Assembly (NCBI RefSeq): GCF_042453785.1
Contig: NC_091674.1
Coordinates: 29,275,501 to 29,339,500, forward strand
DNA from: Malus domestica
Lineage: Eukaryota; Streptophyta; Magnoliopsida; Rosales; Rosaceae
Length of the DNA: 64,000 bases
Reading direction: 5' to 3'
Both the position numbers and the translations under genes were made by a program. Under the pieces are notes generated by a model. That model saw only the letters and a list, made by a program, of their open reading frames with translations. It searched no databases and had not been told where the DNA came from. Below, piece after piece: positions 15,816-24,675 of the stretch. Positions within the stretch are counted from its first letter, which is position 1. Each line of letters starts with the position of its first letter.

Positions 15816-19582
<3,767 letters not shown>

Positions 19583-19959
19583 CTAGAAGCGATGATCGAG
19601 TTTGGAGGAGAAAGAGAGAGGCTGAGAGAAGCTCTGAAGTGGCTTCTGGTGAGTGGGGGCCAAAAAGTAGGTCTTCAGAGAGATAATAAAGAAGTGTTGG
19701 CTGCTTTTGTCAGTCAGGGTTCCAACTTTATGGCTCTGTTGATTTGTATGAGAAATGCTTAGGTTAGGTAAGTTTCAAGGACTAGGATGCTCTCTTCCTC
19801 TTTTCATCTTCTCCTTTCATATTCTCTTATTTTGTTTTTCTCTTACTATAAAAAATTAATATAAGATGTTGACATTGACCGTTCAATTAGGAGGAGAGGA
19901 AAGGGGAGGGAAAAAGAGAGGAGAGAGAATCCTGCTCCAAGTTTCAAAATAGACTCTCA

Positions 19960-20079
19960 GGATGCGATCATACCAACTCACATGTATCAGATCTCATCAT
20001 AACTCCGAAATTAAGCGAGTCTGGGTGAGAGTAGTACTAGGATGGGTGATTTCCTGGGAAGTTCTCGTGTTACATCCCC
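19960..20079 (+). pseudogene. 5S rRNA-derived pseudogene (part of the composite element)
   Basis: The full 120-nt length of plant 5S rRNA is recognisable from GGATGCGATCATACCA to TCGTGTTACATCCCC, with scattered substitutions concentrated in the first half. It lies alone rather than in a 5S array. Cassandra-type TRIM elements also carry 5S sequence in their LTRs and were considered as an alternative source. Confidence 0.85.
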
Positions 20080-20397
20080 ATCTCCTTTTTACCAATACTT
20101 GGTGGTTCACGTGGTAAGGAGCAAGTTCCCCTTAAGTAAGGTTTCGAGTTCGAGTTTTGTGAATGGAGAAGCCAGCATTGGGAGAGCTTGCCTCCCAAAT
20201 GCGGTCCTTTTTACCAATGCTTGGTGGTTCAAGTAGTAAGGAGTTTGTTCCCCTTAAGCAAGGTCTCGAGTTCGAGCCTTGTGAATGGATAAGCCAGCAT
20301 TGGGAGAGCTTACCCCCCCCCCGAATGGGGTTCGACCCAGCTCGAGGGATTAGTCCTCGCCTATGTGCGGGGGATACCCTCGATTCATCCAAAAAAG
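19961..20397 (+). mobile_element. Composite retroelement: 5S rRNA-like head plus two tRNA-type SINE units and A tail
   Basis: Parts: a 5S rRNA-like sequence at 19960-20079 that keeps the internal promoter blocks (ATTAAGCGAGTCTGG and GTAGTACTAGGATGGGTGA), a T5 run at 20086-20090, a truncated SINE unit at 20091-20212 that also ends in T5, and a longer SINE unit from 20213 to about 20390 ending in A6. Each SINE unit has an A-box-like GGTGGTTCA[AC]GT and a B-box GAGTTCGAG. The perfect 11-bp duplication TAGACTCTCAG (19950-19960 and 20398-20408) encloses the entire set, so it was inserted as a single DNA copy. Confidence 0.85.
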
Positions 20398-21460
20398 TAG
20401 ACTCTCAGTAAATTCTCCGAACTTCATATTTTTGACACAATTGTTATATCAACGTTATAAAATATTATACCAAAAATAGAAGGTGGTAGAAAGATTATGT
20501 AGAGTCACACTTTAAGAGAGTTTTCTTAGCATTTAACCACACAACAATTAGGAAACCCACAATTATTTTTTTTTAATTTTGTCAAAGAAAACCCACAAAA
20601 TTAAAAACAAACAAATATTTAGATGTACGATTACTTTAGCCGTTACATTAGATTTTCACAACCGTTATTTTAGCCATTACATGAGATTTTTCAATATCAA
20701 TCATTTATTTCTCGAACCGCTTAATATTATGTGTTATTGAAAAAAAATTCAAATGGTTTATGTGTTCATAGTATAAAAAATGTGTTATTATTGACACTCC
20801 AAAATTTTTAATGTGCACTCTTCATAAATATATTTGTCTTACTAAATATATAAAATTTAGAGTGCCAATACATTTATATAACAGTTAGATGTTTATCAAC
20901 ATGAAATTTGAGTAAATGTAACATGTGCAAAGTAATTGTTTGAAATGTGACAAGCGAACGACGTCATTTGGCCAGCCACACATCCCACACATAAAGAGAA
21001 GTACCTCCTGCATTGGATGAGATGAGACCAATACGAGGCAATGTGAGTCCAATATAGGGCATCCGTTCTCTAACAATATGGTCAAATGAGTAACGTGATA
21101 ACTTGGTCGGACGTAATAAGCTGCTGCAATCTGAACTGAGTCTAAGTTCTACAAGCGACTTTCAACTTTTTAAGACATTAGATAATGTGCAAATTTGGTG
21201 CATCTTTAACTGCATTTTACTGTGAACAAGTGTTTAGCCAATATACCAACGTTTGCCTTATTTTATCGACAAGTTTATACTTTAGGATGTAGCGTGCTGT
21301 ACGGTTAACTTTTGTATTAAATGATAAGGGAATGTAGCTAAAACAAAATTTAAGCTACAGTAGACGGATGGGTCTGGCAATCAAGCTCTCTTTAGCCTTT
21401 GCACTTGAGGGCAAATCTTGATTTGACCGGAAAAAAACTTATGCAAGACAAATCAACGTG

Positions 21461-21630
21461 ATTTTTTTTTTTAGTACATCGATATTTTTACACTAAGGGG
21501 AGGAGGAGTTCGGCTAAGTCATACAATTGGTAGCCTAATTTGGTATCGAATTCGCCATTTACGAGATTCGAATCTAAGACCTTTCATTTTTAAATGAAGA
21601 GGAATACTACCAGATCGTAGTACTAAGTGG
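21461..21630 (-). mobile_element. tRNA-derived SINE with poly(A) tail, copy 1
   Basis: On the minus strand it has an A-box-like GATCTGGTAGTATTCCTC, a B-box-like TTAGATTCGAATCTCG, a shared body (ATACCAAATTAGGCT) and an A tail. It is flanked by CAAATCAACGTG (21449-21460) and CAAATCAATGTG (21631-21642), a 12-bp duplication with one mismatch. Confidence 0.88.
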
Positions 21631-21962
21631 CAAATCAATGTGTTATTAAATTGGAATATTTCTAGCGTAGATGATGGACAAGTCACCTGCTACATTTTGG
21701 CCAAAATTTAGAATCTTACATTTTTCTGGTAACTGAAAGTTAGTGGCGCAAAAAAAAAGGAAAAAAAGAAAGAAGATTCTTTCCCAACTTGTAGTGATTC
21801 AGTCCAAATCAACGGTGGTCCCTTCAGGCCACTACCTAATCCAACGGCTCTGTCTTTGTAATTTCACAGCTACACCCGATCTTATCCATTTTTTCCTGAG
21901 GATTTTTTTGCATCTGATCTGTTTCGCGCGTGCCTCTCAGACTCAACCAACCGCTCGCCGCC

Positions 21963-22691
21963 ATGTGTCATCAATTTCTACATAAATCCTTCGCGCAATC
22001 TGACAAGAATTATAGGAACATATTAAATTCTCCCAGAAACTCCAAGAATTCAGAGAAGGCAGTTGCAGCAGCTTTGACACGTACTTTCTCTCCTGAAAAA
22101 GGTGTGAGCGCTGATCACTCTGTGTCGATCAAATCTTACAAAGTCTTCAACTTTTTGCGGTTTTAATTTCTGGGTTTCTGTTTTTTGATGATTTCTTCAT
22201 CTGGGCAATCTCCAATTTCATGTGTGTTTTCATCTGGGGAGGAGTTCTTGGATGCTAATTAATCAGTGTTATTGAATTGTTAATTGTTAACTTGATGTTT
22301 GAGCATGGACATTTATGAGTTTCCCAGTTCACAGTTTTGCAATTTTATTACTGCTTGGTTCTTGTTCTATTTTTCTCTTGAAAATGTTTGATCACTAGGA
22401 AGTTTCCAACTTCATGAGATTTTAAATTTCTGGGGTGATGTTTCTTGTTGATTTATTCATGTGGGCAATCTGCAATTTTCATTAATATTTGGAGTTCGTT
22501 TTTGTATTTCTGTAATTTTGTCGGCTGGGGAGGGTTATTGAATGCTAATTTATCAATATCAATGGATTGTTAATTATTAACTTAATGTTCAACCATGTAC
22601 ATTTATAATTTTCCCGGTTTAACGTTCTGCAATTTCACAATTAGAATGTTGCTTTTGCTATGTGTTGAATCTTGCAGCGTGTAGGAAATAA
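21963..22691 (+). promoter_or_regulatory. Predicted upstream ORF spanning the leader intron of the TTM gene
   Basis: An ATG at 21963 in good context (GCCGCCATGT) opens a frame that reaches a GTGTGA donor at 22102. If it is spliced to the acceptor ending at 22677 (TTGCAG), the frame closes at a TAA at 22689-22691 after 50 codons, 19 bases before the main ATG. The transcription start and the splice are inferred. Confidence 0.45.
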
Positions 22692-22710
22692 CACAGATTT
22701 TGAGCTCTAA

Positions 22711-24675
22711 ATGGTTCAAGATACAAGTTCTGGTGCTGAATCACCGCGGCTGCGCACTGGTCTGTTGCGGGATCAGGTGCAGCTTGTGAAGAGAAAGGAG
22801 TGTGATCGTTATGAGATTGTCCAAATTCCAGATGTCCTGTCATTTGAGAAAGGTTTCTTTATAGTTATTCGGGCGTGTCAGCTGTTGGCTCAAAAGAATG
22901 AGGGGATAATACTAGTTGGAGTGGCAGGCCCCTCTGGAGCTGGTAAGACTGTTTTCACTGACAAAATGCTCAACTTCATGCCCAGCATTGCAGTTATTGC
23001 AATGGACAACTACAATGACGCTAGTCGAATCATCGATGGCAACTTTGATGGTAAAGAATCTCAACTTTGACGCTAATAGTTCAATTATTCTCCTGTTTTG
23101 AGTGATTTTCCTTTTACAGTAATTGAGTTCTTTACTTCGTTTCCAAATTGTTCACTTCCTTTTTTATAGTGTTCTTTAAAGTTTTGTCCTTCTGATGTCT
23201 TCCTCCATTGTCATCTCTGAATCTTTTTGTCCAATTTTTGATCATGGAATAAGTGATTTTACATCTGAGAGTCATGGCTGAACTCTAATTGTCATATTGT
23301 TTTGGAACAGATCCACGCCTGACAGATTATGAAACATTGCTTGAAAATATACATGGTTTAAAGGCAGGCAATCCTGTTCAGGTTCCAGTATATGATTTCA
23401 AGACTAGCTCCCGCATAGCGTACAGGTAGTGCATCTCTGCATGATGTGGATATGCTTTGCCACATACATAACGTGATAGCTTTTATTTTCTTCTGATTCT
23501 ATTGTATATTGATGGTCCTTCTGGTGCTTCTAACAGGACAGTAGAGGTCCCTAGCTCCCGTATTGTGATCATTGAGGGCATATATGCTTTAAGTGAGAAA
23601 TTGCGACCTTTGCTAGATCTTCGTGTATCTATAACTGGTGGAGTTCACTTTGACCTTGTAAAGCGGGTTTTAAGGGACATTCAGCGTGCTGGCCAAGAGC
23701 CTGAAGAAATTATCCATCAAATTTCTGAGACGGTTACCCCTTTATCCAGTGTTAGAAAGTTTTTGTTATCAGTACAAAAGATTTATGGTGATTCTCATCC
23801 AGAATTTTGTTACAGGTGTATCCTATGTACAAGGCCTTTATTGAGCCAGACCTTCAGACAGCACATATAAAAATCACCAACAAGTTTAATCCCTTCACTG
23901 GTTTTCAGAACCCTATTTATATTTTAAAGGTTGACTATTAAATTTTCTTGTTTTGGTAAATCTTTTTCTCCAGTTGTTTGTTTCAAGAAATACGTAATCA
24001 TTTTCTTTTCTGACTGTATGTTATATCTTATTGCAGTCAACGAAGGCAGTGACAGTGGATCAAATCAAGGCTGTTATATCTGCAGATCACAAAGAAAGCA
24101 CAGAAGAAACTTATGACATATATCTTTTACCACCAGGAGAAGATCCTGAAGCGTGTCAGTCGTATCTAAGGATGAGGAACAGAGATGGCAAATACAATCT
24201 CATGTTTGAGGTTCGACATCTGTAAACTAAAGTTCCTAAAGGATATTACATGCTTTTGACTTTATCCGACCAGTGTCATTGCCTACATATATATCGGAGT
24301 TGTTTTCATCATTGATCAACAGTAAAGAAATGAATCTACAAAGGCTTACCTAGGAGTCTGGATAACAATTTACATGTCTTTCCATTTCAGTCAGGAACCC
24401 TGCTGTTTTTCTTAGTGAAATGAATTTCTGATTCCATATGCAAATAAGCTTGATCATCATCTGGACAATGGACATTTTAAGGAAAAGATTTCAAGATTGT
24501 GACATGGGGATTTTGATGGAGAATTCTTACACGGTTGTATTTTAATTACATGGGGGCGCAGGTGAAAACTTTTGTATAAACTTGTGTGTAGGATTCTGCT
24601 GATATGTGCTTGGTGTGGATCGTTGTGTCTAAATTTCATAGTTTGTTCCGGAGTAGGATCTCTGACTAGCTTTAC

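Follow-up and report, generated by a model that had tools for sequence, protein, structure and literature searches.

The window, as we call the whole 64,000-nucleotide stretch of Malus domestica DNA analysed here, corresponds to G000:C14:29275501-29339500 of the searched assembly. Between a minus-strand open reading frame with a PAD_porph domain, which we take to be agmatine-deiminase-like, and a plus-strand open reading frame with a PRK/uridine kinase domain (window 17018-23867) lies an insertion composed of a 5S rRNA copy and two SINE units. A MITE-like repeat with inverted ends recognised by eye (GGACTAGGATGCTCTC / GAGAGAATCCTGCTCC) occupies window positions 19768-19944, a few bases away, and has related copies on C12, C2, and C8. 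The insertion spans window positions 19950-20408 and comprises the following parts.

19950..19960, plus strand: left target-site duplication TAGACTCTCAG, extendable to 19946-19960 with 14/15 positions matching
19960..20078, plus strand: full-length 5S rRNA copy, unlike the genome's 5S array at 12/119 positions, 10 of which are C>T or G>A
20079..20090, plus strand: decayed 5S 3' trailer CATCTCC and T5, forming joint 1; fits the 5S-gene trailer and terminator CCCCACCTCTTTTTT
20091..20207, plus strand: unit 1, the 5' 117 bp of SINE-A, ending directly after the consensus GGGGTCC; 12/117 positions off consensus
20208..20212, plus strand: T5 at joint 2, outside SINE-A, of which 19/28 other copies align from ACCAATG
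20213..20390, plus strand: unit 2, a full-length SINE-A (tRNA-type SINE); 9/175 positions off consensus
20391..20396, plus strand: A6 tail; most other SINE-A copies displayed have an A-rich tail likewise placed
20398..20408, plus strand: right target-site duplication TAGACTCTCAG, a perfect 11-bp repeat of the left one

Read through, the insert consists of TAGACTCTCAG, 5S, CATCTCC, TTTTT, a 117-bp SINE piece, a second TTTTT, the full-length SINE unit, A6, G, and the closing TAGACTCTCAG. The 5S part matches all of Rfam RF00001 (model positions 1-120 of 120; 19960-20078, 78.9 bits, E 4.5e-15) and carries a 7-nt trailer at 20079-20085. The two T5 runs are found at 20086-20090 and 20208-20212, and the two SINE units align over 114 bp at 89% identity with an offset of 122 bp. 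A preliminary description gave the first unit as a 122-bp SINE ending in T5; the T5 end holds, while the unit proper is 117 bp long (20091-20207), the larger figure counting one T5. The same description had a perfect 11-bp duplication enclosing the 5S, the T5, this unit, and the longer SINE ending in A6, and this was confirmed in the window.

The plus strand of the window contains TAGACTCTCAG exactly twice, beginning at 19950 and at 20398, and the outer duplication stretches to 14/15 positions with one mismatch (AAAATAGACTCTCAG / AAAGTAGACTCTCAG). Among random placements in the window with 3 bp of slack, a repeat at that spacing of at least 11 bp arose in 1/20000 and one of at least 10 bp in 7/20000. 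The G at 19960 can count as the last base of the duplication or as the first of the 5S. The first-strand nick would fall at TTTT/G on the lower strand, near the usual LINE endonuclease preference. No target duplication of its own (at least 6 bp, 6 bp of slack) was found for the 5S, units 1 and 2 together, unit 2, or the 5S with unit 1. The sole repeat bordering unit 1 is CTTTTTACCAAT, the beginning common to both SINE units together with the accompanying T run. Relative to its own consensus, the 5S has decayed at 12/119 positions, unit 1 at 12/117, and unit 2 at 9/175; unit 2 has decayed half as much as the other parts, a difference that is not significant (pairwise Fisher tests, p 1.0, 0.11, and 0.11), and the three parts are compatible with a single age. 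With neither an inner duplication nor a decisive age difference, the earlier proposal that all parts arrived in one insertion stands.

SINE-A could be characterised from the rest of the genome, as 28 of the 33 matches outside the window to a query across both joints were read as SINE-A loci. In 19/28 the alignment opens at base 1 (ACCAATG), and 25/28 extend to the 3' end (at least query position 176 of 179); a perfect 10-17 bp duplication no more than 2 bp from the 5' end flanks 12/28, the other 16 having none by this strict measure. SINE-A is a separate, dispersed SINE family with a common 5' end, a 3' tail, and duplications of its own. Strict patterns for Pol III boxes gave a box A-like match at position 22 and none for box B, to which AGTTCGAGCC is close by eye. 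The consensus reads ...GAATGGGGTCC GACCCGG..., and unit 1 tracks it up to GGTCC (AAATGCGGTCC), after which T5 follows. Since the consensus contains no T run above 2, the T5 runs are neither SINE sequence nor internal terminators. The possibility that T5 belongs to the SINE was considered because the Tandem Repeats Finder unit begins TCCTTTTT, yet it was rejected: copies begin ACCAATG, and TCC is the consensus immediately before the break.

As units 1 and 2 both come from SINE-A, the insert attests no more than two kinds of transcript. The units have a single non-consensus state in common, T86G, which is found in 10/28 copies, so their separation is probably about as old as the element itself, and a late duplication at the DNA level is unlikely. 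They are not mutual nearest relatives, ranking 12 and 25 of 30 (10 and 26 by transversions). At 15 sites polymorphic in the family the units agree at 11, including both sites that are not simple C/T or G/A alternatives (80 and 86); the four at which they differ (32, 47, 109, and 113) are all C/T or G/A.

The genome's own 5S genes provide a reference for the 5S part. An array on C4 with a 323-bp unit supplies most of the 249 5S matches (overlapping loci counted), of which 228/249 read an identical 5S and 218/249 then continue with CCCCACCTCTTTTTT. The array trailer is CCCCACCTC followed by T6; the T run is T6 in 235/243 trailers, T5 in 7/243, and T7 in 1/243. In the window the corresponding stretch reads CATCCC-CATCTCC-TTTTT, which would be derivable from CACCTCTTTTTT by shortening of the C run plus two changes. 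Because this trailer and its T5 match the terminator of 5S genes, the template was an unprocessed 5S transcript, trailer and terminator included. The suggestion that the T runs represent the 3' oligo-U of Pol III transcripts is well supported at joint 1, given that the genome's 5S genes end CCCCACCTCTTTTTT; at joint 2 it is what we infer for the second run.

Cassandra elements are unlikely as the 5S source, judging from sequence comparison with the Cassandra-like locus L090 (G000:C7:2313980-2314800), in which two 5S-bearing repeats lie 490 bp apart and ATCCTTG precedes the first 5S. At seven sites separating the array from L090 the window carries the array base at six, and its base at the seventh also occurs in 4/249 array matches. 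L090 has no such trailer and no T run within the trailer span. The window insertion has an 11-bp duplication, not a 5-bp one, no LTR-like repeats around it, and an rDNA-type 5S. We also dropped the idea that the 5S head had diverged before insertion: the 19/119 differences (6 transversions) behind it were counted against an Arabidopsis-like 5S, and since the genome's array shares part of them, including 5/6 transversions, the argument fell.

A search with the two junctions, as the preliminary description had proposed, was run in the window's assembly (651 Mb, 19 contigs). The whole-element query returned one full match, and the others were SINE-only or 5S-only (at least 38 matches; best 37 of 495 candidates scored). 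The query across both joints returned 35 matches (34/34 candidates scored), two being the window itself; none of the other 33 begins before the T run, runs past the end of unit 1, or spans a joint. As this search skips very common words, a pattern scan for T5 plus the SINE start (TCCTTTTTACCAATRCTTGGTGG, up to 3 mismatches) was added and found 5 sites genome-wide, against 3 when the pattern was reversed as a control. Two of the 5 are the window's own, one is a SINE-A copy (L003) with its own target duplication in front of it, and two on reading have neither SINE nor 5S. Pattern scans of viral_contigs and genome_contigs, and a search of papers for fragments of the sequence, gave 0 matches and were uninformative. 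No donor locus for a U5-tailed, shortened SINE-A RNA was present among the joint-query matches. A homoeologous stretch on C6 lacks the insert, but its flanks are not alignable at the target, so it provides no exact empty site.

Both junctions were found once only in this assembly, and the SINE is found inserted separately elsewhere. This agrees with the earlier preference for a one-off template-switch chimera over a 5S-headed composite family: with both junctions found only here and SINE-A having other copies, the insert does not represent a composite SINE family of this genome. Its junctions, in the one assembly examined, are not common to other copies, in keeping with a tripartite template-switch chimera.

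The window is not the only place where 5S has been fused. A 5S-start pattern tolerating C>T decay, with arrays excluded, gave 22 matches (reversed control 0), which by their flanks are 8 Cassandra-like (the C7 pair alone was read), 4 array-like, and 10 dispersed in 9 loci. Two more loci bring the dispersed 5S loci to 11; these come from targeted patterns and represent at least 11, not a census. Including the window, they contain four 5S-SINE fusions and two 5S concatemers, and those outside the window are as follows.

G000:C12:3204300-3205000, about 250-546 (L040): 5S-SINE-B fusion with full 5S, trailer, T3 or T4, and SINE from base 1
G000:C11:34274850-34275480, 191-489 (L091): 5S-SINE-B fusion with full 5S, trailer, T3 or T4, and SINE from base 1
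C11 (L085): fusion of 5S 1-61 (to query 66) with a third SINE from about its base 1
G000:C10:26237050-26237780 (L084): 5S concatemer, three head-to-tail 5S and an A-rich tail, without array spacer
G000:C12:29797040-29797560 (L105+L107): 5S concatemer, two head-to-tail 5S and an A-rich tail, without array spacer

Four further dispersed loci (L041, L042, L086, L087) have a short extra tail and an A run, and the eleventh, L044, falls outside these classes. The short tails of L041, L086, and L087 are TTCGCC, TTCGACC, and TTCACC, each followed by the A run; they may represent the few terminal bases of a LINE or SINE from which the enzyme then jumped, or mark a tiny 5S-derived family. Five sites matched a pattern for 5S with a TTCRCC(A)n tail, and none matched the control. 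Three of them are the loci already known on C2, C10, and C16, the others being C12:29797174, which is the 5S-5S dimer ending CAAC(A)n, and C14:19300775. Five matches are too few for calling a 5S-SINE family with this tail.

Target duplications accompany 7/11 dispersed loci, L044 being outside the test. They measure 11 bp in the window, 13 in L040, 11 in L085, 11 in L084, and 15 in L087; that of L042 (15-17) is weaker as it is A/G-rich, and that of the C12 dimer, about 13 by eye, is less certain since its motif recurs in the flanks. None was found for L041, L086, or L091, so that among the fusions other than the window 4/5 have one. In the ten classed loci, all but L044, the 5S is the 5'-most RNA part, and its trailer is plain in 8/11 loci, loose in L086 and L087, and absent in L085, where the 5S is cut at 61. 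Of seven joints downstream of a 5S in the six fusions, four are end to end (the window, L040, L091, and the first joint of L084). The remaining 3/7 are off RNA ends (the partner starts from 5S position 3 in L105, and the break is inside the upstream 5S in L085 and at the second joint of L084), so that a jump need not land at the end of an RNA. Where the trailer is kept, at five joints, the T runs are 5, 3, 4, 4, and 2 long, compared with mostly T6 in the array, and such lengths would be expected for Pol III 3' ends. The third SINE, in L085, begins at query 62-74 in 38/40 other matches and at 47 and 52 in two. In two of the 5S-SINE fusions the 5S part has 0 and 2 of 119 changes, so these look young.

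SINE-B, the partner in L040 and L091, is a young SINE and presumably has an Au-like start. Compared with the consensus of 12 ordinary SINE-B copies, the copy on C12 has 1 change and that on C11 has 4 others, with none in common, and their joints carry different trailers and different numbers of T. In L040 the target duplication and the 5S are separated by 11 additional bases, while L091 bears a 20-bp inverted fold-back copy of 5S at its 5' end. Sequence comparison thus favours two independent fusions, short of proof. Elsewhere, on C9, a SINE-B dimer (L095+L108, G000:C9:32249290-32249620) consists of a 5'-truncated copy, TTT, and a full copy, with no clear target duplication.

We consider it probable that the window element arose by a single LINE-type, target-primed retro-insertion with template jumping between Pol III transcripts. 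Reverse transcription would start at the A tail of a SINE-A RNA and copy through to its 5' end. The enzyme would then jump to another SINE-A RNA, presumably an independent molecule, which was 3'-shortened and ended in U5; starting at that 3' end, it would copy through to the 5' end. A further jump, onto the oligo-U with which an unprocessed 5S transcript ends, would let it copy that RNA to +1, and the whole cDNA would be inserted to give one target duplication. The outer duplication and A tail point to target-primed reverse transcription by LINE machinery, the enzyme we infer. A jump from a finished 5' end to another RNA, in this presumed direction, would account for a partner starting at its first base and a 5S ending at its trailer. 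The observed supports are the one outer duplication, the order and orientation of the parts, SINE units that both begin with base 1 of the family, a 5S that extends to its trailer and terminator, the junctions found only here in the assembly, decay compatible with one age, and the other 5S fusions. The double switch proposed earlier thus fares unevenly: a template switch at joint 1 is supported, and at joint 2 a second jump and slippage are not separated.

Slippage is the chief rival for joint 2, and we regard it as a serious if rather doubtful alternative. One jump would first produce 5S-T5-SINE-A, and the SINE would be recopied after the cDNA re-annealed at a 3-nt match, the TCC before the T run pairing with the TCC in GGGGTCCGACC, to yield a 122-bp tandem unit that includes T5. 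The tandem period does begin TCCTTTTT in both units, unit 1 ends exactly at the consensus TCC, the T5 is identical in both, and the agreement at 11/15 polymorphic sites, sites 80 and 86 among them, is in its favour. Against this, the units are not each other's nearest relatives by either ranking. The array trailer, moreover, is CT6, and CTCCTTTTT was in none of the array loci fetched, so that a CC-T5 common to both joints would require either an identical change at each of them or a 5S variant that has escaped notice.

RNA ligation, the chief rival for both joints, we judge unlikely, and jumping is preferred to it. A cellular RNA ligase would join the three Pol III RNAs, and the ligated RNA would be reverse transcribed once; ligation before reverse transcription would leave identical anatomy. 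Several joints are at RNA ends, as ligation would have it, and the accessible part of PMC13174262 names it alongside one other mechanism for U6/L1 chimeras. The joints away from ends (5S 1-61 with SINE in L085, the break inside 5S in L084, and the start at 5S position 3 in L105) fit jumping or broken RNAs about equally.

A 5S-headed, SINE3-like composite family moving as a unit is very improbable. The 5S gene has an internal promoter, which would help such a family, and two copies joining 5S to an Au-like SINE exist in the genome. Several copies with the same junction were sought in this assembly and not found, the window junctions each occurring once, and the two 5S-SINE-B copies lack a common derived SINE variant and differ at their joints in the trailer and the number of T. 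That the three parts were inserted on separate occasions, one nested in another, is hardly credible: TCCTTTTT on both sides of unit 1 is readable as an 8-bp duplication, but its TCC is SINE consensus, unit 1 is without the 3' end where target-primed copying begins, and no duplication was found around the other parts.

Comparable chimeras have been published for a fungus and mouse. Tripartite chimeras flanked by duplications of 14-16 bp are reported in the available text of PMC2104539, namely WEIRD / Mg-SINE / MGL in Magnaporthe and B2 / U6 / L1 in mouse, for which double template switches were proposed. The window element appears to work alike; it differs from those in that text in being from a plant, having no LINE part, consisting of three Pol III-type parts, and keeping the 5S trailer and oligo-T at joint 1. 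Human U6/L1 and 5S/L1 chimeras, in the accessible part of PMC13174262, likewise have a small structural RNA 5' of a retroelement, one insertion, and target duplications. The 5S segments of human 5S/L1 chimeras are there typically antisense and truncated, whereas the window 5S is sense, full length with trailer, and joined to a SINE.

SINE3 and AmnSINE1-type SINEs (PMC10886601, PMC3747384, as far as these are available) have 5S at the SINE 5' end, as in the window; they are families, whereas the window element was found as a single copy. Cassandra TRIMs (available portions of PMC10886601 and PMC10853983) also place a 5S-like sequence in a plant retroelement, but they are LTR elements, and the window matches rDNA 5S, from which the L090 5S differs at 7 sites. 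Among Malus SINEs, table 2 of PMC3747384 gives SINE-1/2/4_Mad with (A)n and the Au-like SINE-5_Mad with (T)3; SINE-A has an A tail and SINE-B a T tail and presumably an Au-like start, a likeness by table description and not by sequence. No report of a plant 5S-SINE fusion was present among the matches listed in searches on plant 5S-SINE fusions and plant or dimeric SINEs, which left subscription papers mostly outside. The kind is thus already published for fungus and mouse, with no plant report found in the literature searched.

To our knowledge, the fusions that found 5S-headed SINEs have rarely been described before they multiplied. SINE3-type SINEs presumably start from fusions of 5S RNA with a retroelement, and this one plant genome contains several 5S-SINE fusions that are probably independent. 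We suggest, tentatively, that the LINE machinery here repeatedly strings Pol III transcripts together, completing one SINE or 5S RNA to its 5' end before hopping to another, often at an oligo-U end, and commonly with unprocessed 5S as the last template. The fusions would then represent, in plants, the raw material, still in single copy, of composite and 5S-headed SINEs. Fusions of this kind mark the positions of jumps and indicate that unprocessed Pol III transcripts with U tails were templates, which offers those who work on plants a trace of reverse-transcriptase jumps that can be counted. They also serve as a warning that dispersed 5S matches in genome annotations can be retro-chimeras.
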